NCBI GenBank assembly: GCA_029552745.1
Contig: JAKPDK010000158.1
Location: forward strand, 124,001-188,000
Reading direction: 5' to 3'
Origin: Candidatus Hydrogenedentota bacterium
GTDB taxonomy: Bacteria > Hydrogenedentota > Hydrogenedentia > Hydrogenedentales > SLHB01
Length of the DNA: 64,000 nt
Part shown: in pieces, positions 43,841 through 53,744 of the stretch
How the letters are laid out: the number at the start of each line of letters is the position of its first letter
Numbering within the stretch: the first letter of the stretch is position 1
Program-made: the position numbers and the translations under genes
Notes under the pieces: model-generated
Told to the model about the DNA's origin: nothing
The model's database searches: none
The model's input: only the letters and a program-made list of their open reading frames with translations

Positions 43841-43879
43841 GACGTCTAACTACTCACATTGGAAAGACGGTACGCAACG

Positions 43880-45733
43880 ATGACATTACGCGACTTGTTT
43901 CGTGAACCACCTCGTGACTATTCCCTAGTCCCCTTTTGGTTCTTAAATGACAATCTTTCCGAGGAAGAACTGATACGCCAAATCAATGATTTTGAGGCAC
44001 ACGGCGTGTATGGTTTCATCCCCCATCCGCGCATCGGACTTCCCAAGTCAATTCCCTTCGTTTCGAGGGAATGGTTCCGTATCTTACAGGTTTGTGTAGA
44101 ACAAGCTGCCAGAAAGGGTATGTTTGTCATACTCTACGACGAAGGCATGTACCCGTCTGGGTCCTGTGCTGGACAGGTAGTAGCTGCAAACCGAGGGTTC
44201 GCAGCGCGTTGTATCCAGCGACGAAAACCCGACAACATCGAAGATGACGAAGAAATCATCTTTCAAGACAAGGAATGGCTATACGTGCACACCAGATCGC
44301 GTGGTACCATCCGTGGACTACATTGGGACTCAGATGACGGGAAGGAATCTGCACCTCCCGCTGCCGATTTACTCAATCCAGATGCAACCGCAACGTTTCG
44401 TCGTCTTAGCCTCGACCGCCACTACGAAGAATTAAAACCCTATTTCGGCAATGTCATTCGAGGAATCTTTACCGACGAACCATCTCTTTTAGGGAGGAAC
44501 GCGCTTCCCGAAGTCCGCCCGTGGACGTGGGGGTTTGATCGTTATCTAAAAGAACAACTAGGATACGATTTTATACAAAACATCCCCGCTTTATTTGACA
44601 ACTCACACCCATACCACTCCAGAGTCGAACATGATTTCCTCCGAGCGGTAAACCGGCGTTTGGCTGAAACCTATTATGCGCCCTATAGCCAATGGTGTGA
44701 AAAACATGGTGTTGCCCTCACGGGACATCCCGCCGGACCTTGCGACATCGGTTTTCTTAAATACTTCCACATTCCAGGACAAGACGTCGTCTGGCGGTAT
44801 ATCGAACCTTTCAAGGACAACGCGTTGACTGGCCACCAGTCGACGATGGCGAAATGCAGTTCATCCGCACAACGCCATTATGGCCGCGCGCGAAACCTGA
44901 ACGAATGTTTTGGCGCCTACGGATGGGAACTCACATACGACGAAATGCTCTGGATTACCAATTGGCTGCTCATCCGTGGGGTCAATATGCTTGTGCCCCA
45001 CGCCTTTTACTACTCCTTACGAGGCGAGCGTAGAAATGAACGTCCGCCGGACGTAGGACCTAATAGTCCTTGGTGGAAAAACTACAAACGGTATGCCGAC
45101 TATTGCCGACGTCTGTGCTGGCTTCTGAGCGAAGGTAGACACGTCTGCGATGTTGCCGTTTTGGCCGACACAGACTCGTTGCCTTGGCGTGCCGCACGTG
45201 CTTTATTTGAATCTCAACGAGATTTCAACTATCTCGACCGCGAAACCCTTTTACGAGAATGCCGTGTGTCCGCGGAAAACATCCAAATACGAGATATGAT
45301 GTACAAGGTCCTCCTGGTCGACGGCGCCACGGGATGGGATGAAGAAGTTGCAAATAAAGTCCAGGACATGAGTCGTTCAGGAAGAGTAATCGCTTTTCCT
45401 GATCCCATCGAAGGGATTTCCCATGCAAAAGATTGCGAGAGCCTGTCCGTCCTACTTAACTCCCTCGTTCCCCCCGATGTTTCCATCGTGCCTCGAAATC
45501 CAAACCTGCGCTATATCCACCTTCGGCACCAAGAAACGGACTTCTATGTTTTCGCGAACGAAGGCAAGGAGTCTATTCAAGCAGAGTTATTTGTAGCTTC
45601 AGATCTCACCAACCGGGAATGGTGGGACCCTGAAACCGGTCTTGTCGTATCAAAGGCAACCGACCAAATTATCCTCGCACCCTTTCAAATTCTGGTATTG
45701 AATGCATCAATCCACAAACATTCAACACTGTGA
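43880..45733 (+). CDS. GH106-like glycosyl hydrolase (alpha-L-rhamnosidase family)
   Basis: A protein of about 617 residues without a signal peptide. It opens with VPFWFLNDNLSEEELIRQINDFEAHGVYGFIPHPRIGLP (about residues 15-55), the hallmark of the GH106/PF17132-type family, where the phrase 'L-YDEGMYPSG' (here residues about 90-100, VILYDEGMYPSGSCAG) follows. A central FTDEPSLLGRNALPEVRPW segment (about 198-216) has an acidic pair likely in the active site, and later segments (ECFGAYGWELTYDEM, GVNMLVPHAFYYS) also match the family. The C-terminal part is a beta-sandwich. Family members remove rhamnose, but the substrate here is unknown. The gene stops 12 bases before repeat copy C. Confidence 0.75.
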   Translation: MTLRDLFREPPRDYSLVPFWFLNDNLSEEELIRQINDFEAHGVYGFIPHPRIGLPKSIPFVSREWFRILQVCVEQAARKGMFVILYDEGMYPSGSCAGQVVAANRGFAARCIQRRKPDNIEDDEEIIFQDKEWLYVHTRSRGTIRGLHWDSDDGKESAPPAADLLNPDATATFRRLSLDRHYEELKPYFGNVIRGIFTDEPSLLGRNALPEVRPWTWGFDRYLKEQLGYDFIQNIPALFDNSHPYHSRVEHDFLRAVNRRLAETYYAPYSQWCEKHGVALTGHPAGPCDIGFLKYFHIPGQDVVWRYIEPFKDNALTGHQSTMAKCSSSAQRHYGRARNLNECFGAYGWELTYDEMLWITNWLLIRGVNMLVPHAFYYSLRGERRNERPPDVGPNSPWWKNYKRYADYCRRLCWLLSEGRHVCDVAVLADTDSLPWRAARALFESQRDFNYLDRETLLRECRVSAENIQIRDMMYKVLLVDGATGWDEEVANKVQDMSRSGRVIAFPDPIEGISHAKDCESLSVLLNSLVPPDVSIVPRNPNLRYIHLRHQETDFYVFANEGKESIQAELFVASDLTNREWWDPETGLVVSKATDQIILAPFQILVLNASIHKHSTL

Positions 45734-45744
45734 GCCCATACCCC

Positions 45745-46076
45745 CCTTTGGCATTGCGAGGAGGGAGTCTTCGAAGCGACGAAGCAATCCCCACAACCGC
45801 GCAGCGCAAAAGGCCCAGGTGCAAGACTGAGTTCGGGACATCTCCAAATTTGCAAGGGGATTGCCACGTCGTGCCTGACGGCATTCCTCGCAATGACAGC
45901 GGTGGGGCAATAGCGCAGTAGGACGTGATAGAAAAAAGCGGTCCCAAATGCTCAAGGGGTTTGTAAAGAGCTCAGTCATAGTTCCGGGTGCCACGTGTCG
46001 ATGTTTTTCCCTTTAGCACCTTCCTGGAAATTCCAATCGCCATATCCTCATTCCACGTTACAAAAAGTGACAAAGG
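45745..46076 (+). repeat. Dispersed non-coding repeat, copy C
   Basis: A 332-bp unit from CCTTTGGCATT (45745-45755) to AGTGACAAAGG (46066-46076), the ends being 1-mismatch versions of the motif in copy A. It has CATTGCGAGGAGGGAGTC...GCGACGAAGCAATCCC and GGGGATTGCCACGTCG...ATTCCTCGCAATGACAGCGG. The right end reads GTACTAGACTTATACATTGAATTG, close to copy B. The 5' part lacks the GCATAAG flank found in A and B. The remaining 150 bases up to the MKHI promoter hold nothing recognised. Confidence 0.7.
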
Positions 46077-46226
46077 TACTAGACTTATACATTGAATTGC
46101 TGCAGTGTCTGGGGAGCCATCCTGTTTTTCAGAACAATAAACCGGATATAACCGTCATCTTTCTTCGCCTGGGACGCGTAACATGTTTGAACCATTTCGG
46201 TAGAATAAGCGAGGACAAGAAAAAAG

Positions 46227-46290
46227 TTGACAATTTAAGCTTCCCGTGATATATTTGCCAAGTGTTGCCTTGCGGGTCAGTGACACTGAC
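46227..46290 (+). promoter_or_regulatory. Strong promoter and palindrome before peptide 1
   Basis: TTGACA (46227-46232), exactly 17 bases and TATATT (46250-46255) form a near-consensus sigma-70 promoter. The expected transcript start is near 46262, 63 bases before the peptide 1 start. A perfect 15-bp palindrome, GTCAGTG-A-CACTGAC, lies at 46276-46290 in the leader and could be an operator or a small RNA hairpin. Confidence 0.65.
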
Positions 46291-46324
46291 GCCTCAATAT
46301 GCAACAAAAGGAGATTGGTGTACC

Positions 46325-46480
46325 GTGAATCATATCAAGAGGTTGACAATACAAAAAGCGCAAATCGCGCCAAACACTAGTAGCGGCAGCAATGTAGACC
46401 TGCCCTTCATCATTTCAAGTCTTCAACTGGTGTTAACGGTGCTTCAGGCAGTTCAAACCAAAAAAGCCGCTGCCTCATGA
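46325..46480 (+). CDS. MKHI-family short peptide 1 (candidate RiPP precursor)
   Basis: A 51-residue peptide from a GTG start. The start is fixed by AAAAGGAGA at 46306-46314, ten bases upstream, and by the promoter, whose start point lies past any earlier codon. The first 13 residues (start-NHIKRLTIQKAQ) align without gaps to the next two peptides: His3, Ile4, basic 5/6, Leu/Ile7, Thr/Ser8, Lys11, Ala12. Residues about 14-24 are Ser/Asn-rich and 25-44 are hydrophobic (LPFIISSLQLVLTVLQAVQ). The end is basic and Ala-rich (TKKAAAS). I recognise no known family. Its own promoter and terminator flank it. It is the first gene of the MKHI locus; the shared N-terminus with divergent rest is the signature of leader and core. 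Confidence 0.65.
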   Translation: MNHIKRLTIQKAQIAPNTSSGSNVDLPFIISSLQLVLTVLQAVQTKKAAAS

Positions 46481-46498
46481 GAGGCTTGTTGCTTTTTT
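46460..46498 (+). terminator. Intrinsic terminator after peptide 1
   Basis: An AAAAAAGC ... GCTTTTTT outer stem encloses an inner GCCTC-ATGA-GAGGC hairpin, and ends in a run of six T. It overlaps the last codons of peptide 1, so it ends the transcript right at the stop. Confidence 0.65.
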
Positions 46499-46518
46499 GT
46501 AACGTTTGAAATAGAGAG

Positions 46519-46547
46519 TTGTAAAGTAGGGCAAAGAAGGGGATAAT
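46519..46547 (+). promoter_or_regulatory. Second promoter, before peptide 2
   Basis: TTGTAA (46519-46524), 17-base spacer and GATAAT (46542-46547) fit a sigma-70 promoter with start near 46554. It would give peptides 2 and 3 their own transcript, separate from peptide 1. Confidence 0.5.
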
Positions 46548-46622
46548 TGAGCGGGTTTGCGAAAGGGCAACACGCTCATGGGTTTAAAGGCAAAGAGTTA
46601 AGCGAAAAAAGGAGAAACACAC

Positions 46623-46799
46623 ATGAAACACATCAGCCGCATCACTGTAGCAAAAGCTCAAGAGGAACAGACTGACCTGTTTGCCAAGGTCACGGGCTGC
46701 ATCGAGGATTTTGTCAGCGCCATCACCGGTGCTTACGATTCCGTGCTGGCCGCTGTTGACGCTCTGCTTGCATGCTTCATCCCCCCCGCAGCCAGCTAA
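46623..46799 (+). CDS. MKHI-family short peptide 2 (candidate RiPP precursor)
   Basis: A 58-residue peptide beginning MKHISRITVAKAQ, the same 13-residue N-terminus as peptide 1. The remainder is a long amphipathic/hydrophobic stretch (residues about 18-52) with two Cys at 26 and 51 and a C-terminal IPPAAS. The two Cys could form a disulfide or a modification site. An AAAAAAGGAGA ribosome-binding site lies eight bases before ATG. The gene is 38 bases before peptide 3 and probably shares its mRNA. It is too short for automatic gene finders. Not recognised as a known peptide family. Confidence 0.7.
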   Translation: MKHISRITVAKAQEEQTDLFAKVTGCIEDFVSAITGAYDSVLAAVDALLACFIPPAAS

Positions 46800-46837
46800 T
46801 AATTGAACAGCATTAGCAACATTTGTGGAGAGATAGG

Positions 46838-46954
46838 GTGAAACACATCCGCAAGATATCGCAGCGAAAAGCCGACGCGTGGAGTGATTTCTTAAATGAT
46901 CTTCAGTCTGCGTGGTCGAGATTCGTTTTCGCCAAGAAGAACGAAGTCGTTTAG
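46838..46954 (+). CDS. MKHI-family short peptide 3 (candidate RiPP precursor)
   Basis: A 38-residue peptide from GTG, beginning start-KHIRKISQRKAD, matching peptides 1 and 2 at His3, Ile4, basic 5/6, Ile7, Ser8, Lys11 and Ala12. The core is short and has Trp at 15 and 26, several Phe and a basic-acidic end (FAKKNEVV). GTGGAG seven bases upstream is the ribosome-binding site. A strong terminator follows 22 bases after the stop. The different C-terminus and same N-terminus support a leader function for the first 13 residues. Confidence 0.65.
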   Translation: MKHIRKISQRKADAWSDFLNDLQSAWSRFVFAKKNEVV

Positions 46955-46975
46955 AACTTCCTGCGGAAAAGACAA

Positions 46976-47019
46976 TGCCGGAGCCTTCGAGAGAGAAGGC
47001 TCCGGTATTTTTTGTTTTC
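46976..47019 (+). terminator. Strong intrinsic terminator after peptide 3
   Basis: A CCGGAGCCTTC arm, a GAGAGA loop and a GAAGGCTCCGG arm form an 11-12 bp GC-rich stem, followed by ATTTTTTGTTTT. This is the clearest terminator in the window and separates peptides 2-3 from the downstream modification and export genes. Confidence 0.85.
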
Positions 47020-47091
47020 ATGGGTTCAACAAATGTTCCAGATAAGAACGAATAAGCCTTTAAATGGTGGCGGCAAAATGGAGGAAATAGT

Positions 47092-47133
47092 ATGAAACAC
47101 ATCAAATCGTGCACTTTACCAAGACCGGGATAG
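47092..47133 (+). CDS. MKHI-family peptide 4, 13 residues (partial or remnant)
   Basis: Only MKHIKSCTLPRPG and a stop. An ideal GGAGG lies seven bases before the ATG. The first four residues equal those of peptide 2, but Lys11-Ala12 are replaced. It may be a decayed fourth precursor cut short by a mutation, or a short leader used for coupling. The 316 bases from here to the next gene show no other convincing feature; a 48-codon frame from 47178 has no good ribosome-binding site. Confidence 0.4.
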   Translation: MKHIKSCTLPRPG

Positions 47134-47449
47134 GAGACAGGAAAATCATACTCGGACGATAAAGGTTTAAAATAGAAAATATGCGGCTAGGCCTTTCGGT
47201 AATTATTCCGACAAGACTTACGAAAAACGCGAGGGTGTGTGAGTGTGATTTTTCTTTCAGTAGAGGGGTAGTGCGGGGGTTGCTTACACCAAAACCGCAA
47301 TCTGAGCGCCATTCAGACGCATCCTAAACTTAAGTTTTTTCTTCATATGCGCAAATACCATCAAATTCAATACCCCTTATTAGGATTTCCGACCGCGAGT
47401 CATGTAAAATGGCCAGTATCAACCTGTTTAGAATGGAAGAGAGTAACTC

Positions 47450-48034
47450 ATGATTGTAGGTGAACATGCCGTTGTGCGCATCGCCGATCCGGATGATGCC
47501 GTATTCCTTGCTCGCTTGTTTGACCCCGACATGCCACGGGCGTTTTCCTTGAATATAAGAAGAGAACTGCAATATTTGACAATTGACGACTTGCGCGAAG
47601 CGCTCAGCCACAAAGATTTCCGCGCAGGACTGTTTTATACCATTGAGGACCTCACGGGACTCATTCGGGGTTTTTTTTCCATTAAAACACCCCTGCCTGA
47701 GGTCAACTATTCAGAATTCCTTTTCGGGCTTGCCTCGAGCGAAGACTATGACTCCCCGCTGGCAAAAAATGCCATGGAAATCCTCGAACGACTTGCGTTT
47801 GTGCAAAAACGCCTTAACAAGCTCGTTGCCCAATGCTTGGAGAACGAAACAGATTTCCGAAGCCTCCTCGAAGCACGAGGATTTACGTCTGACGGTATAC
47901 AACGCGACGTCTTGTTCACCGGCGGACGATACCTAAACCTCGAAACATTTACCCTTTTTCGATCGGATTATCTTGCACGAGAACCTATCTACGACGAGTC
48001 TCCAGACATGGCGACTCCGAGAAGATCTCCCTAA
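47450..48034 (+). CDS. GNAT acetyltransferase-like protein A, MKHI locus
   Basis: A 194-residue protein with a RimJ/RimL-like GNAT layout: VVRIADPDDAVFLARLF at the start, a central ENAMEILERLAFVQKRLNKLVAQCLENETDFRSLLEARGFTSDGIQRD stretch like the 'E-N--S---LE--GF--EG--R' GNAT motif, and a LFRSDYL end. Canonical acetyl-CoA loop Q/RxxGxG/A is not clear, so activity is uncertain. ATG 47450 follows GAGAG. It is the first gene of the downstream block and 81 bases before the second GNAT. Role proposed: modifying the MKHI peptides or conferring self-protection; both are inference. Confidence 0.6.
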   Translation: MIVGEHAVVRIADPDDAVFLARLFDPDMPRAFSLNIRRELQYLTIDDLREALSHKDFRAGLFYTIEDLTGLIRGFFSIKTPLPEVNYSEFLFGLASSEDYDSPLAKNAMEILERLAFVQKRLNKLVAQCLENETDFRSLLEARGFTSDGIQRDVLFTGGRYLNLETFTLFRSDYLAREPIYDESPDMATPRRSP

Positions 48035-48115
48035 AGAACCGAAGGCTTCAAGTCAATTCGCTGAGTAATGCTAGAACAAAAAACGAGACCAAAAATTTGC
48101 GGAAAGGTACCCAGC

Positions 48116-48745
48116 ATGGCATTCAAAAAAAGCGTGTTTCTTCGAAGAGCAGACCGAGAAGACCTGGATACGATCGTCGAATGGATGGAAGATACGGATT
48201 TTCATCATTTTCTCTATGGCGACCCCGCACGGTCCCCAAAACAAGTCCGAGAACAAATCGTGGGGATGCTCGGACGTACCATGAGCCAGACCATGCCGAA
48301 CGCCGTTTACTTGCTCATCGACAGCGAAGACGGCCCGATGGGGATTCTTTCCTTGCAAAATATTAGCTGGCGAAATCGCTCTTGTAGTCTAGACCTCTAC
48401 ATCCGCAAAGAGTTTCGCAGCAAGGCTGTGGCTGCCCTGGCTTTCTTCCGCGCTATGGAATATGCCTTTGATGAACTGAATCTTCACCGCGTCGCCGCCT
48501 ACATCTACTCATTTAACTCGCCTTCCTGGCGCCTCATGGAGTTCAGTGGTGCCAAACGGGAACTCGTGCTAAAAGACCACGTAGCGCGCGACGGTAAACT
48601 CTATGACCTGTATGCGTATGGCATGCTCCGCGATGAGTTCGAGCAACTTCGCGCCAAATACGCGGAAAAATACCCCGAAGCCACACTTGCCGCCATGTTA
48701 CAAGCCATGAATGAGAAAGAACAAAAGGCGGAGTCCCAAACGTGA
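48116..48745 (+). CDS. GNAT acetyltransferase-like protein B, MKHI locus
   Basis: A 209-residue RimL-type GNAT: VFLRRADREDLDTIVEWMEDTDFHHFLYG at the start, LLIDSEDGPMGILSLQNISWRNRSCSLDLYI (about 80-110), then the helix-loop for CoA in FRSKAVAALAFFRAMEYAFDELNLHRVAAYIYSFNSPSWRLMEFSGAK, with NSPSWRLMEFSG matching the 'N--S--L-E--GF' motif. ATG 48116 is taken because AAAGG precedes it; an earlier in-frame ATG at 48068 has none. The stop overlaps the CPBP protease start in a GTGA. Substrate unknown. Confidence 0.7.
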   Translation: MAFKKSVFLRRADREDLDTIVEWMEDTDFHHFLYGDPARSPKQVREQIVGMLGRTMSQTMPNAVYLLIDSEDGPMGILSLQNISWRNRSCSLDLYIRKEFRSKAVAALAFFRAMEYAFDELNLHRVAAYIYSFNSPSWRLMEFSGAKRELVLKDHVARDGKLYDLYAYGMLRDEFEQLRAKYAEKYPEATLAAMLQAMNEKEQKAESQT

Positions 48746-49800
48746 CCGCTTTGGCTTTCGTGAAGTTCCTATGTTTGCTGGCAGCCGGGGTGCATGCCGC
48801 ACATTCCATATATCGGAACTTGGTTTCACATGACGGTAGCCCGACCCGTTTATCCGCTCAAGAACGAAAACCGGAACCCCCCGCGAAGTATACACCGAAA
48901 ACCTATAAAGGAAGACTGCCGGAACATCTCTTTGTGAGACACCCCGCTCTCTCTGCAAGAACCGGCATGCGTCCGTCCGCCGTATTGCGTTCTGTTCGTC
49001 GTATGCTTCCTTCCAAACAGCCGTTACCGTGGCAAGGTTCTCCCCGCGTCATTCCGACCCGCTTGTGCAAAGCGCACGCTGCACCCGTTCCTAGCCACAA
49101 AAACGAAGGGTTTTGGGATTTTTGGCGTAGCGCATGGACACACTTTACCGACATTAGCGCCCTGTGTGATTACGCATTGGAAAGTCCTCTTGTACTCGGG
49201 CACTTTTTACTTGTTGCGTTCGTAGAAGAAATGATCTGGCGCGTTGCTTCACAATCCATCTTGATTGAATTCCTCCAGCAAGTCTCGTCGGCTTTGTGGG
49301 CATCGCCCCCTCAATGGTTTGCCACAACCCTTGGAATTGTGATTATCGCCTTCCTCTTCTCCGTTTCCCACAAACATTTCTTCGAAAATACCTGGTTGGT
49401 TTCTGCCGAGTTCTTCGGTTTTGCAATCCTGCTCGGCTTGCTTTACTATTGGACGTCGAGCTTCGTACTGGTTGTCGTGATTCACGCATTACGTGACATC
49501 GAGATAACCTTTCTCGAATACCAGATTCGTTCGGAAGAAATCGGCGACAGAGAAACCGCAGCACGTGAGGTCGAGCAATCGCTCCTCCGCGATACCCGAA
49601 TGCGGCGTCGCCCAAGTGTGCGGGAACTCCTTTTTCAGGTTCCGGCTTTTTATTTATCTTGTTTTCTTGGTTATTGGGAATACGGGGCGTTTACGCGCGA
49701 ACTGATATCTCCTCTGCATATCGCCTTAGGCATAGCGGCGGGACATCTGATTTTTGGCGCGTCCCTATTAATCACCTTGCATAGTGCGGAGACAGCATGA
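48742..49800 (+). CDS. CPBP-family intramembrane metalloprotease
   Basis: A 352-residue protein. Residues 1-125 are a basic soluble region with one short hydrophobic N-terminal helix; the rest has about five or six helices. The CPBP (CAAX protease/Abi) motifs are VEEMIWR (EExxxR, near 160-166), SVSHKHFF (near 204-211) and VVIHALRDI (near 244-252), so all catalytic residues seem present. In peptide clusters CPBP proteases act as leader processing or immunity proteins. The start GTG overlaps the previous stop (GTGA), and the stop overlaps the ABC ATPase start (ATGA). Confidence 0.8.
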   Translation: MTALAFVKFLCLLAAGVHAAHSIYRNLVSHDGSPTRLSAQERKPEPPAKYTPKTYKGRLPEHLFVRHPALSARTGMRPSAVLRSVRRMLPSKQPLPWQGSPRVIPTRLCKAHAAPVPSHKNEGFWDFWRSAWTHFTDISALCDYALESPLVLGHFLLVAFVEEMIWRVASQSILIEFLQQVSSALWASPPQWFATTLGIVIIAFLFSVSHKHFFENTWLVSAEFFGFAILLGLLYYWTSSFVLVVVIHALRDIEITFLEYQIRSEEIGDRETAAREVEQSLLRDTRMRRRPSVRELLFQVPAFYLSCFLGYWEYGAFTRELISPLHIALGIAAGHLIFGASLLITLHSAETA

Positions 49801-50867
49801 ACACGGAATACGCTGTAGAATTAGAGCATATCAATAAGGTCTATCACACCCGACACTTCTTCTACCGAGACGAAGAGACAGGTCGCCGACGATGGTATAC
49901 CAAAAAGACGGTGCATGCCGCTGTCGACGTCAACTTCGGGATCCGTCCCGGGGAGATTTTCGGGCTATTGGGTCCTAATGGCGCCGGCAAAACCAGTTGC
50001 GTCAAAATGATATCTGGATTAGTTCGTCCCACGTCCGGCAACGTTTACGTAGAAGGACTTCACGTCGAGAAAAAGCGTCTACAAGTTTTGCGACGAATCG
50101 GTGTTGTGTTGGAAGGTACCCGCACCGTCATTTGGCCACTGACGCCCTTAGAAAATCTGAACTATTTCGGCAACTTGCGCGGCATTCGGGGCAAGGTACT
50201 CAAAGAGCGCGCGCGCCAACTCCTCGACTTCATCGGACTGAAAGACAAAATGAACGTCCAGGTGCGCCGCCTTTCCCGCGGACAACGCCAGAAACTCGCC
50301 ATTTGCATCGCTTTGATAGCCGACCCTTCCGTCATCCTTCTGGACGAACCCACCACGGGATTGGATGTGCAAAGCAGTCATGCCATACGCGAAAAAATAC
50401 GCGAAATGACCCGCGCGTTCAACAAAAGCATGTTAGTCACTACACACGATATGTTTGTGGCACAAGATCTATGCGATCGTATCGGCATTATCGACAAAGG
50501 AAAACTGATCGCATGTAAAACTACCCCGGAACTCCTCGACGTCTTTTCCGACAAGACCTTCGAGTTCCGTCTCGATAGAATCCCCGAACCCTCAAAATTC
50601 TTGTCTATTCAAGGCGTTCAGTCGGTCGCTCTCGATGAAAACGGGGAGGGTCCCGTGCTTGTCGTCTCTGTCGAACAAGAGGAGACGATTCGTTCCGCCG
50701 CTTTATACGAGATTATCTCCCTGCTCCGCGATGATGGATATCTCTTGAAATCTGTCTCCATGCGGCAACAAACGCTGGAAAACGTCTTCCTTCGTCTCAC
50801 GGAAAGCACAACACCGAGTGTGAAACCTATAGTTTCTGCTGAAAATCAACTAGAAAGGCGCGTGTAA
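49797..50867 (+). CDS. ABC transporter ATP-binding protein, MKHI locus
   Basis: A 356-residue ATPase of the ABC-2 type. Walker A is LLGPNGAGKTS (about residues 57-67), the signature is LSRGQRQKL (about 158-166) and Walker B is VILLDEPTTGLD (about 179-190). Its N-terminus has an unusual insertion (FFYRDEETGRRRWYTKK, about 22-38). The C-terminal extension (about 260-340) resembles DUF4162. Overlaps the protease by four bases; the permease follows after 19 bases. It likely powers export of a peptide or lipid-linked substrate. Confidence 0.9.
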   Translation: MNTEYAVELEHINKVYHTRHFFYRDEETGRRRWYTKKTVHAAVDVNFGIRPGEIFGLLGPNGAGKTSCVKMISGLVRPTSGNVYVEGLHVEKKRLQVLRRIGVVLEGTRTVIWPLTPLENLNYFGNLRGIRGKVLKERARQLLDFIGLKDKMNVQVRRLSRGQRQKLAICIALIADPSVILLDEPTTGLDVQSSHAIREKIREMTRAFNKSMLVTTHDMFVAQDLCDRIGIIDKGKLIACKTTPELLDVFSDKTFEFRLDRIPEPSKFLSIQGVQSVALDENGEGPVLVVSVEQEETIRSAALYEIISLLRDDGYLLKSVSMRQQTLENVFLRLTESTTPSVKPIVSAENQLERRV

Positions 50868-50886: not shown

Positions 50887-51828
50887 ATGTGGCACATAAA
50901 TGGCTTCTTCCTAGTACTCAAAGCGGAGATCGTCCGCGCATTCATCATCATGCGACGATACTGGTTCGCATCCATTATCAGCATCATCATGGGATATGCC
51001 ACCTTGATTACCATCGTCTATGGGCTTATGCATACCCCCAGTTCCGTGAAGGAAATGGCTGAAAAGGCAATCAACGGCATCCTCGGCTTCCTCATAGGGG
51101 TGTTTGCCTTTGGTATTGTCGGCCTATTCTCGCAAGGCTTGCAAGGGATGGCACGCACCGGCGAATTGGAACAGGTGTGCCTCAGTCCGTTCGGTTTGGT
51201 CACCAACTTTTTGGCACGGTCCTTTGTCGCTGCGTTGGGCAACATCGTCAGCAGTGCCATCATGCTCATCCTGGTAGCCAAAACCGTGGCAGAAAATCTA
51301 CACGTGGCACCTGTCGAAACGCTTGTACTGCTCTCTTTAACCTACATCAATCTGATCGGTTTCGGCTTCATGGTCGGTGGCTTGGTATTAGTATTCAAAC
51401 AAACGGGTCAGATGGCGGTCATCGTTCGATTTGCGATGATTGGACTGGCCATCTTTGCCACCGAAAAAATCTCCCAATGGCCTATGTTCGCCCGCTGGGT
51501 GGCTCATGCCCTCCCCGTCACAGACGCCGCCATTTGCTTAAAATACACCATTATCCAGGGACAACAGGTCATCAAATACAACGAGCTGGGCGAGCCGATC
51601 GTGCGCGCCTTAGAACCTGTCTTGGATTCTGCAGGTAAACCCATTTTGGACGCCCTAGGGAATCCGGTTATGAATCGCATTTATGAGACCACCTTCTCGT
51701 CTGTTTTCACTCATGAGTCGTTTTTCTTTCTCATCTTGAGTTGTATCATTTGGACAGCCATTGGTATCGCGTCCTTCCGCTTTATGGAGAATTGGAGTCG
51801 CGATAAAGGTACGTTGGGGGCATACTGA
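50887..51828 (+). CDS. ABC-2 type transporter permease, MKHI locus
   Basis: A 313-residue membrane protein with six or so helices and the ABC-2 fold (YWFASIISIIMGYATLITIVYGL, GFLIGVFAFGIVGLFSQG, LARSFVAALGNIVSSAIMLILVA). It has a loop of about 40 residues between the last two helices (VIKYNELGEPIVRALEPVLDSAGK...). It should pair with the ATPase just upstream. Its stop shares one base with the start of the SPASM-GNAT gene (TGATG), so the products are translationally coupled. Confidence 0.85.
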   Translation: MWHINGFFLVLKAEIVRAFIIMRRYWFASIISIIMGYATLITIVYGLMHTPSSVKEMAEKAINGILGFLIGVFAFGIVGLFSQGLQGMARTGELEQVCLSPFGLVTNFLARSFVAALGNIVSSAIMLILVAKTVAENLHVAPVETLVLLSLTYINLIGFGFMVGGLVLVFKQTGQMAVIVRFAMIGLAIFATEKISQWPMFARWVAHALPVTDAAICLKYTIIQGQQVIKYNELGEPIVRALEPVLDSAGKPILDALGNPVMNRIYETTFSSVFTHESFFFLILSCIIWTAIGIASFRFMENWSRDKGTLGAY

Positions 51829-53744
51829 TGCCAAAAGAACTGATTCACCGTTTCCAACTAGGCGGCAAGAGATTCGCCATCGACCCGGAAACCTGTTTCT
51901 GTTTCGAGTGCGACGATGTTTCGTGGGATGTGTTGGAGTTTTATCCTACTGCCTCGGTTACACGCATCCTTTATGAACTGCAAGGCCGCCATGACCCGAA
52001 AGAAATCAAAGAAGTCATTAGCGAACTGGAGTGGCTACGCGCCACCAAATCGATACTTCCTCATGTCCCTGCAGACAAGTTCGTCAAACAGTTTGAATTG
52101 GAGCGCGGCGTAAAGTTCATGAGTCTCCGGATCCCCCGAGAAGCAGACGAGCCCGCAAAGATAAACAGGCGGTGGTTCAATAAGACACGTCCGAATGTTC
52201 TTTCATCTTCGGCGCGCAACTTGTGCCTGGCAGCACTGGAACTCTTGGTAGGGCGGTCCCTCGAGCAAAAAGAACTCCACTTCACGTTCTTGGAAGAAAA
52301 AGGTGTGACCTCGCCAGACCTCCTCGCCGAAATGGGCATGCACGCTCTAAAACTCGCTTCGTTGACCGGCAAGAAAATCGTGCCTAAAGTCTTGTTGGAA
52401 AACATCTCCCTCCGCGACCTGCCGGAGTCCGTTTGTTCCCATCATCTAAGCATAATGTTGGAGTTCTCTTCGGAAGCCGACATAGCAGACATTTTGAATC
52501 CACTTTGTGGCGACCGGACATTCTCTACGAGCCAGGTTTTGAGTGCCATGAAGGCTACCGGTGTGCAAGGCAAAATAGTTGTGCGCCCCAACCATCCCTC
52601 GTATGAGACCGTCGTATCCGAACTCTATCGGGCAGGCTTCCAATCTATCGAGCTCGATCTAGACAGCGCATTTGCAACTCATCCGGAGATAGAACCGGAA
52701 TCTATGCTACAAGGCCTGCGCGCTTCGGCGCTGTTTTACGCGGAAAGTCTTCAATCCGACAAGTATTTCCGATTAGAACCCATTGCTGGATTGTTTTACC
52801 GTATCCACGAAGGCAAACCTGCGCCCCGCACAGACCCCGCGGGTTTACACGAGCTCGCCGCTGATGACGCCGGAAACCTATATCCCTCTCGTCGTTTCGT
52901 CGGTAATTCCAATTTCATAGTCGGCTCGTTGCAAAAAGGCACTATAGATGAGACACGTCTCCTGCCGTTTAACGACGTCGGCTCGTTAACTACCGGTGTT
53001 TGTCGGCGTTGCTGGGCACGCAATCTATGTGGCGGAGGCTGCGCGGCAGTGCACGCCGCCTTCACGGGCTCATTTCACACCCCCTATGAACCCTGGTGCA
53101 ACATGCAACGCGAGTGGATGGCATCTGCTATAAGTACGTTCAACATTCTGAATGCGGCGGGTGTCAATTTCTCCCGAATCTATGCCCCGTCGGCCAGCGG
53201 CAAAAAAACACTCTCGCTTTTTACCATGGTCCGCGCCGCGATGCAACTCACCGTAGCGATGCGCCCCATCGAGGAGGCAGACGCCCCCCTGCTCGCAAAA
53301 TGGGAAAACTGGTGTGATGCTTCCTATTTCGTGTGCCATCCAGGAGGGTTATTGCTTGCCACGGTCTACGAACGAGAAATGGACGCGCTTCACCCTCAGA
53401 CGTTAGAACAAGAGATGGTCCTTACCCGCCGAAATGGTGACCCCATCGGGCTACTACGCATTTCCCCCGACAAATTCCCCGGCGTCGCCCATGTTGCGGT
53501 GTTTCTTCACAACCCGGCGGAGTATGCATCTCCCGACATCCGCAAAGGGTGCCGACTTCTGCTCCGGGAAGCTGGCAAACAGCAAGCGCTTCGAAAGATT
53601 CTCGTTTATGCCGGCGACCATGAGCCTCATCTACACGAGTTCTTGCGTGCGCTGGATTTGGAGCCCTTGGGCACCTTGCGCGAAGCGCTGTTTCTCCACG
53701 GCAAGTATCACGACGTAACGGTGTTTGCTCTTTCTACGACGTAA
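51828..53744 (+). CDS. RRE-like, degenerate radical SAM/SPASM and GNAT fusion protein
   Basis: A 638-residue protein. Residues 1-80 (MPKELIHRFQLGGKRFAIDPET, then DVSWDVLEFYP and ISELEWLRATKSIL) resemble the N-terminal PqqD-like, leader-binding domain of SCIFF-type radical SAM peptide maturases. The region 90-350 follows their barrel, but the CxxxCxxC motif is missing, and where the maturases have 'YPCHQFVG' this protein has YPSRRFVGNSNFIVGSL, so a SPASM ligand is lost too. The end of SPASM is kept: C392, C395, C401 and C405 in CRRCWARNLCGGGC, plus C424. Residues about 465-638 are a GNAT domain (TVAMRPIEEADAPLLAKWEN). Catalytic radical SAM chemistry is thus unlikely; a leader-binding scaffold feeding an acyltransferase is my proposal. 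It overlaps the permease by one base. Confidence 0.75.
   Translation: MPKELIHRFQLGGKRFAIDPETCFCFECDDVSWDVLEFYPTASVTRILYELQGRHDPKEIKEVISELEWLRATKSILPHVPADKFVKQFELERGVKFMSLRIPREADEPAKINRRWFNKTRPNVLSSSARNLCLAALELLVGRSLEQKELHFTFLEEKGVTSPDLLAEMGMHALKLASLTGKKIVPKVLLENISLRDLPESVCSHHLSIMLEFSSEADIADILNPLCGDRTFSTSQVLSAMKATGVQGKIVVRPNHPSYETVVSELYRAGFQSIELDLDSAFATHPEIEPESMLQGLRASALFYAESLQSDKYFRLEPIAGLFYRIHEGKPAPRTDPAGLHELAADDAGNLYPSRRFVGNSNFIVGSLQKGTIDETRLLPFNDVGSLTTGVCRRCWARNLCGGGCAAVHAAFTGSFHTPYEPWCNMQREWMASAISTFNILNAAGVNFSRIYAPSASGKKTLSLFTMVRAAMQLTVAMRPIEEADAPLLAKWENWCDASYFVCHPGGLLLATVYEREMDALHPQTLEQEMVLTRRNGDPIGLLRISPDKFPGVAHVAVFLHNPAEYASPDIRKGCRLLLREAGKQQALRKILVYAGDHEPHLHEFLRALDLEPLGTLREALFLHGKYHDVTVFALSTT

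Follow-up and report, generated by a model that had tools for sequence, protein, structure and literature searches.

A short leader shared by dispersed small peptides of Hydrogenedentota, and a candidate maturation and export operon with a SPASM-GNAT protein lacking the radical SAM motif

Grasp-with-SPASM systems contain a SPASM-type peptide protein that works without radical SAM chemistry. In CteB, a maturase of SCIFF (ranthipeptide) precursors, an N-terminal RRE binds the leader by taking it up as an additional β strand (PMC6231123). SCIFF is widespread in Clostridia, and physiological or signalling roles have been argued for SCIFF peptides (PMC8326336). In the case of the prochlorosins, one tolerant maturation system, ProcM, handles many precursors that share a conserved leader and are scattered genome-wide (PMC10783134). 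GNATs of other RiPP clusters, those of selidamides and nostolysamides, acylate Lys or ornithine side chains (PMC13060382). A literature search returned no paper on a Hydrogenedentota RiPP, or on a system of the kind described below.

We analyzed a 64,000-nucleotide stretch of a Candidatus Hydrogenedentota contig (the window), in which a group of short peptide genes precedes an operon ending with a 638-aa protein, SPASM-GNAT. Over residues 4–435 this protein resembles the SCIFF maturase CteB/ScfB (PDB 5wgg/5why; TIGR03974, NF040492) in its combination of RRE, barrel, and SPASM and, like SCIFF, the system is near-universal in one large lineage, here Hydrogenedentota. Unlike CteB/ScfB, SPASM-GNAT has no CxxxCxxC (37 aligned copies), contains an extra invariant CFCxEC, and is fused to a C-terminal GNAT; unlike SCIFF, the precursors are mostly devoid of cysteines and occur many per genome, and six cysteines in about 45 residues, a feature of SCIFF precursors, were not observed. 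The layout, one system with a conserved leader and many dispersed precursors, is that of the prochlorosins, but the leader is short (~14 aa) and has no GG site, cores are conserved between species, no lanthionine residues are required, and none of the tested genes downstream and upstream of the peptides matched LanM. As in selidamides and nostolysamides, a cluster GNAT is accompanied by a conserved basic side chain as a candidate acylation site. There, however, the leaders are of the NHLP or Nif11 type, while none of ten representative peptides from Hydrogenedentota matches any leader family (no match to known leader or precursor families of NCBIfam and Pfam above cut-off), and the GNAT, whose acylation activity is a prediction here, is fused to a SPASM scaffold. 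The SPASM-GNAT operon shares the lack of radical SAM chemistry with Grasp-with-SPASM, and differs from it in having no ATP-grasp gene. The system appears to be RiPP-type; with no LanM among the tested genes, no radical SAM motif, and no Nif11 or NHLP leader, it lacks a defining feature of each of the prochlorosin, radical SAM, and selidamide systems.

The peptide genes of the window and their putative signals are as follows:

46227–46255, + strand: promoter-like site 5′ of peptide 1, TTGACA-17-TATATT with an extended −10, 11/12 (consensus match only)
46325–46480, + strand: leader peptide gene 1, GTG start, 51 aa, RBS; hydrophobic class A core with C-terminal ...LQTKK
46459–46499, + strand: terminator-like hairpin with T tract after peptide 1, MFE −20.0, z −4.8
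46623–46799, + strand: leader peptide gene 2, ATG start, 58 aa, RBS; two-Cys amphipathic core
46838–46954, + strand: leader peptide gene 3, GTG start, 38 aa, RBS; class C core ADAxxDFxNxxxxAWxxFxxxKKNE
46974–47009, + strand: intrinsic terminator after peptide 3, 15-bp stem and T tract, MFE −28.3, z −6.9
47092–47133, + strand: leader-only ORF 4, ATG start, RBS, 13 aa, MKHIKSCTLPRPG*

A sequence-only reading had described four short genes, each with a ribosome-binding site and all with the same N-terminus. The frames and RBSs are as it described. The 46200–47200 interval contains four [AG]TG-(K/N)-H-I starts; 5000 dinucleotide-preserving shuffles gave 0.003 on average and never more than 1, which rules out chance similarity of the four. 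The sole further start of this type within the 64 kb window belongs to a 5-codon ORF. ORF 4 consists of a leader alone, with a motif break at position 7, and is probably what remains of a precursor gene. The sequence-only reading had expected gene finders to overlook three of the four genes; common gene callers take ORFs of at least 30 codons, and therefore only the 13-aa peptide 4 is certain to escape them. The hairpins with T tracts that follow peptides 1 and 3 suggest that transcripts of the peptide genes are probably separate from those of the downstream genes. Terminator-like hairpins were found 3′ of 18 of 45 class C genes, compared to 5% of random windows.

Because searches for class C genes also gave leader-only matches elsewhere, the motif was sought genome-wide, as GGAG-N(2-12)-[AG]TG-K-H-[ILV]-x-x-[ILV]-[ST], in 68 genomes. 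This combination of an RBS with MKH[ILV]xx[ILV][ST] was matched 271 times, on average 4 and up to 11 times per genome. In the same genomes, the reversed pattern gave a single match, and a pattern with K and H swapped (MHK) gave two; phylum-wide, the enrichment over the permuted control exceeds 100-fold. Thus, the idea of one leader with different bodies, proposed from four ORFs, holds far beyond the locus. The N-terminus is also kept in homologues: upstream of gnat1, the first gene of the operon, the 14 relatives with sequence in that region have one to four RBS-preceded short ORFs starting with M[KR]H[IVL], and many more are found phylum-wide. In the window's own genome, for which counts come from pattern searches, additional peptides were located at C27:99760-100430 (three, adjoining an ECF sigma factor and a large second protein), at C27:128.7-128.9 kb (two), and at C109:224.6 kb. 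Two other matches in this genome, C25:46966 (26 aa) and C26:143720 (110 aa), appear to be due to chance.

The sample of motif loci that was fetched yielded 202 different peptides, which fall into about 60 core families and are mostly unlinked. Core classes at the locus are A (peptide 1), hydrophobic and ending with KE, KN, or KK; B (peptide 2), with a Cys pair; and C (peptide 3), ADAxxDFxNAxxRAWxDFxxxKKNE. In class C, the leader and the conserved core are joined by a linker of variable length, and hence leader and core are separate blocks. The core of peptide 3 was recovered in the class C profile search with an E value of 1.2e-18. Matches to this profile are strong (E <1e-13) in most of the 68 genomes; with the threshold relaxed to E 0.1, 58 genomes have one, in several cases a weak one. 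The ortholog of peptide 1 in the nearest relative retains ..DLSFIIATLQ..LQALQTKK (cluster 21). The C-termini had been considered unrelated, and bodies indeed differ from one peptide to the next, but the hydrophobic body of peptide 1 and the Trp-rich body of peptide 3 are conserved families in relatives. Other families recur across bacterial families, FFQLYFTxLAFMISAAxGDK and LDRVFGFVxEI..KGK among them.

A regular expression search for precursors adjoining the operon found none in five loci (L100, L101, L103, L105, and L106); with the profile search, class C genes were recovered from other contigs of some genomes belonging to the same family. Precursors and operon are also on different contigs in several f3 genomes. 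Many unlinked single precursor genes sit beside diverse other genes. In several genomes, one Cys-pair family, DLICxV...GGxSP...KCxIP, precedes BACON/vWA and LRR lipoprotein-like genes. In four genomes, Cys-pair peptides have as neighbors a large lipoprotein-like BACON protein (vWA in the window's own genome) and an LRR lipoprotein-like one, at the following loci:

L231, 6881–9637
L241, 8529–13047
L242, 4797–9401
L248, 9704–14194

In two genera (L039, 5170–8640, and L234, 1317–4400), an ECF sigma factor and a large second protein are followed by three tandem leader peptides. Single leader peptides were noted 3′ of cydAB-like (cytochrome bd) genes (L246, 10034–12778) and 3′ of a ferritin-like gene (L249, 8453–9142); the identity of the neighbors was assigned by eye in both cases.

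Conservation at leader positions 2–4, 7, and 8 is partly a consequence of the search pattern, which includes them. Outside the searched motif, basic residues at positions 5 and 9, Pro or Lys at 11, and Ala at 12, 14, and 15 are enriched, and the information decays to background near residue ~17. An MKH leader peptide that may serve as a SPASM-GNAT ligand is MKHIRKISQRKADA. Over 20 ortholog pairs, dN/dS was 0.12 for the leader and 0.07 for the core. These low values show that the precursors are translated genes whose cores are under purifying selection. The sequence-only reading had anticipated a conserved leader and diversifying cores; the first expectation was correct, and both the comparison of orthologs and the dN/dS values rule out the second. 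Cores consist of a single helix, either hydrophobic or amphipathic, and have a C-terminal lysine. A lysine follows residue 16 in 201 of the 202 peptides, the K:R ratio in the last 15 residues is 4.8 (compared to 0.37–0.44 in host proteins), and an almost invariant lysine column marks the helix end in most large clusters. Cores without Lys in the last 18 residues, window peptide 2 among them, make up ~11% (cluster-weighted). Two or more Cys are present in only 17% of core clusters.

The peptide genes are followed by an operon with these genes:

47450–48034, + strand: gnat1, degenerate GNAT-like protein, paralog of the SPASM-GNAT C-terminal domain (hhalign E 2e-11)
48068–48745, + strand: GNAT2, SpeG/RimJ-like N-acyltransferase (PF13302, E 2e-18)
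48742–49800, + strand: CPBP intramembrane protease, Rce1-like with a weak myxosortase match (PF02517; EExxxR motif seen), candidate leader peptidase
49797–50867, + strand: ABC exporter ATPase, DrrA-like
50887–51828, + strand: putative ABC-2-type permease, assigned from position and hydrophobicity; syntenic in relatives
51828–53744, + strand: SPASM-GNAT, 638 aa; CteB-like RRE, radical-SAM-fold barrel without CxxxCxxC, SPASM, and SpeG-like GNAT

In the relatives examined, the order gnat1-GNAT2-CPBP-ABC-ABC-SPASM-GNAT is strictly syntenic, with precursors just upstream. The permease has no Pfam or NCBIfam match. The GNAT acyl-CoA loop (Q/RxxGxG/A) is absent from gnat1, and its canonical form is not clearly conserved in GNAT2. 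An anti-phage defence system was considered and set aside, as three operon proteins gave no PADLOC match. In the window CPBP protein, residues ~293–349 match a segment that precedes the catalytic core in relatives, and a ~90-aa linker is present on the N-terminal side; the arrangement is an apparent circular permutation or an assembly problem.

The SPASM-GNAT profile matches CteB (5wgg) over residues 4–435 with an E value of 3.9e-38. A predicted model (mean pLDDT of 74) has a Foldseek match to CteB (E 6.6e-17), while its last ~170 residues match SpeG acetyltransferases. The N-terminus is thus RRE-like, of the CteB kind, by both profile and fold. The SPASM part matches ScfB/QhpD-like maturases, and the domain is recognized by TIGR04085 (38.5 bits at a cut-off of 27). 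The radical-SAM CxxxCxxC is absent from all 37 aligned homologues, ruling out an active radical SAM maturase. Essentially invariant in the same 37 proteins are a CFCxECD motif (CFCFECD) near the N-terminus and the SPASM motif CxxCWxxxxCxGG...WC; a fourth SPASM cysteine (C405) is retained only in the window protein and its two nearest relatives. The GNAT region of the 37 homologues is marked by ENWxxAxYF and YDREMDxLHP.

A scan of GTDB r220, one genome per species, was performed with SPASM-GNAT as the query, so that the phylum restriction concerns this protein: its relatives were found almost only in records named Candidatus Hydrogenedentota or Hydrogenedentes. The exceptions outside the named phylum were two "uncultured bacterium" records and one "Nitrospiraceae" record. 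The latter contig (L071, JAACEL010000057.1), labelled "Nitrospiraceae bacterium OTbin.67", carries the system, and probably belongs to a mislabelled MAG. Plasmids contained no full-length SPASM-GNAT, only partial matches with 21–24% identity to radical SAM proteins. Among 68 Hydrogenedentota genomes, all of them MAGs, 62 encode SPASM-GNAT. In a 63rd genome, G049, the gnat1, GNAT2, CPBP, and ATPase genes are present, the last of these being cut off by the contig end. Four genomes of one family (G047, G048, G050, and G051) have neither SPASM-GNAT and GNAT2 nor leader peptides, the single motif match in G048 being a 486-aa signal-peptide protein; G046 and G049, of the same family, have both operon genes and leader peptides. 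Because the operon-less genomes all come from one family, the co-occurrence of operon and peptides is not fully independent.

The reading we prefer, at a probability of about 0.62, is that peptides 1–3 are precursors in a Hydrogenedentota-specific system of leader-directed maturation and export, including a lysine-acylating scheme. The first ~14 residues, MKH[IVL]xx[IVL][ST]xx[PK]AxA, would constitute a recognition leader, which is very likely bound by the RRE-like N-terminus of SPASM-GNAT, most likely as a β strand. SPASM-GNAT itself would be a CteB homologue that is missing the radical-SAM cluster site and now acts as a docking scaffold and acyltransferase, presenting the core to GNAT domains. 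A more tentative step is that the GNAT domains of SPASM-GNAT and GNAT2, with a partner role for the degenerate gnat1, acylate the conserved lysine that follows the core helix, as the C-terminal lysine bias (K:R of 4.8, compared to 0.4) suggests; the bias could alternatively arise from membrane topology or exporter preference. Against this step, the canonical CoA loop is not clearly conserved in GNAT2 and is absent from gnat1. The chances are about even that the CPBP protease cuts after the Ala-rich leader end, near Ala12–15, and the ABC transporter probably exports the resulting (lipo)peptide. A single operon would serve 4–10 or more precursors dispersed over the genome. As to the proposal that the peptides are RiPP precursors, the shared leader is accompanied, just downstream, by a candidate leader-recognition enzyme, a protease, and an exporter; the peptides may be RiPPs in the strict sense.

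The N-terminus could instead be an export or sorting signal only, with the ABC pair and the CPBP protein secreting and trimming unmodified membrane-active microproteins, and SPASM-GNAT and the GNATs acting as chaperones or being otherwise engaged. The simple hydrophobic or amphipathic helices of the cores, with few chemically special residues, the missing CoA loop of gnat1, and the inclusion of a protease and an exporter in the operon all agree with such an arrangement. We consider it unlikely, since the exporter is co-conserved with a CteB-like scaffold for peptide binding and with three domains of GNAT type, and since a bias specific to K, rather than to R and K, is not expected from a charge requirement alone.

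ABC exporters and CPBP proteins are common in bacteriocin loci. The presence of both in the operon, several paralogous precursors per locus, and the membrane-active look of the helices would suit classical antimicrobial RiPPs under diversifying selection, but the strong purifying selection on orthologous cores (dN/dS of 0.07), the maintenance of class C across most of the phylum, the near-universal presence of the system, and the many unlinked single genes beside diverse other genes make this highly improbable. We place similarly little weight on a still redox-active SPASM-GNAT, in which CFCxEC and the SPASM cysteines would hold a metal center that modifies peptides without SAM. The near-invariance of these cysteines in 37 homologues despite loss of the radical-SAM ones speaks for this idea; against it, the remaining SPASM cysteines may be structural or zinc-binding, and the fourth is limited to the window protein and two relatives. 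No SPASM redox enzyme that works without SAM is known to us.

That the system is nearly universal and its cores are conserved argues for a physiological or signalling role of the peptides rather than antibiosis. It is possible, though somewhat less likely than not, that the system amounts to a phylum-defining secretome: dozens of families of conserved single-helix microproteins, dispersed next to unrelated genes, marked by one 14-residue tag, and served by one operon with an ex-radical-SAM leader-docking acyltransferase, would become lysine-lipidated surface or membrane peptides with physiological and not antibiotic roles. If the preferred reading of leader-directed maturation and export is true, it adds a new class of leader-directed maturation, which uses a radical-SAM scaffold without radical chemistry. 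With the leader as a sequence tag, hundreds of unannotated small genes of an uncultured phylum can be found at once. Since near-universal peptides under purifying selection argue for a core physiological role, the phylum would also be a test case for RiPP-like roles besides killing competitors.

Just upstream of the peptide genes, at 43859–45733 of the window, is a glycoside hydrolase family 106-like (α-L-rhamnosidase-like) gene, to which no match was found in the relatives' loci that were fetched. It is followed, at 45745–45905, by a palindromic-looking intergenic repeat (..gcgaggagggagtcttcgaagcgacgaagcaatcc.. / ..ggattgccacgtcgtgcctgacggcattcctcgcaatgaca..), which by eye resembles a dispersed mobile repeat.
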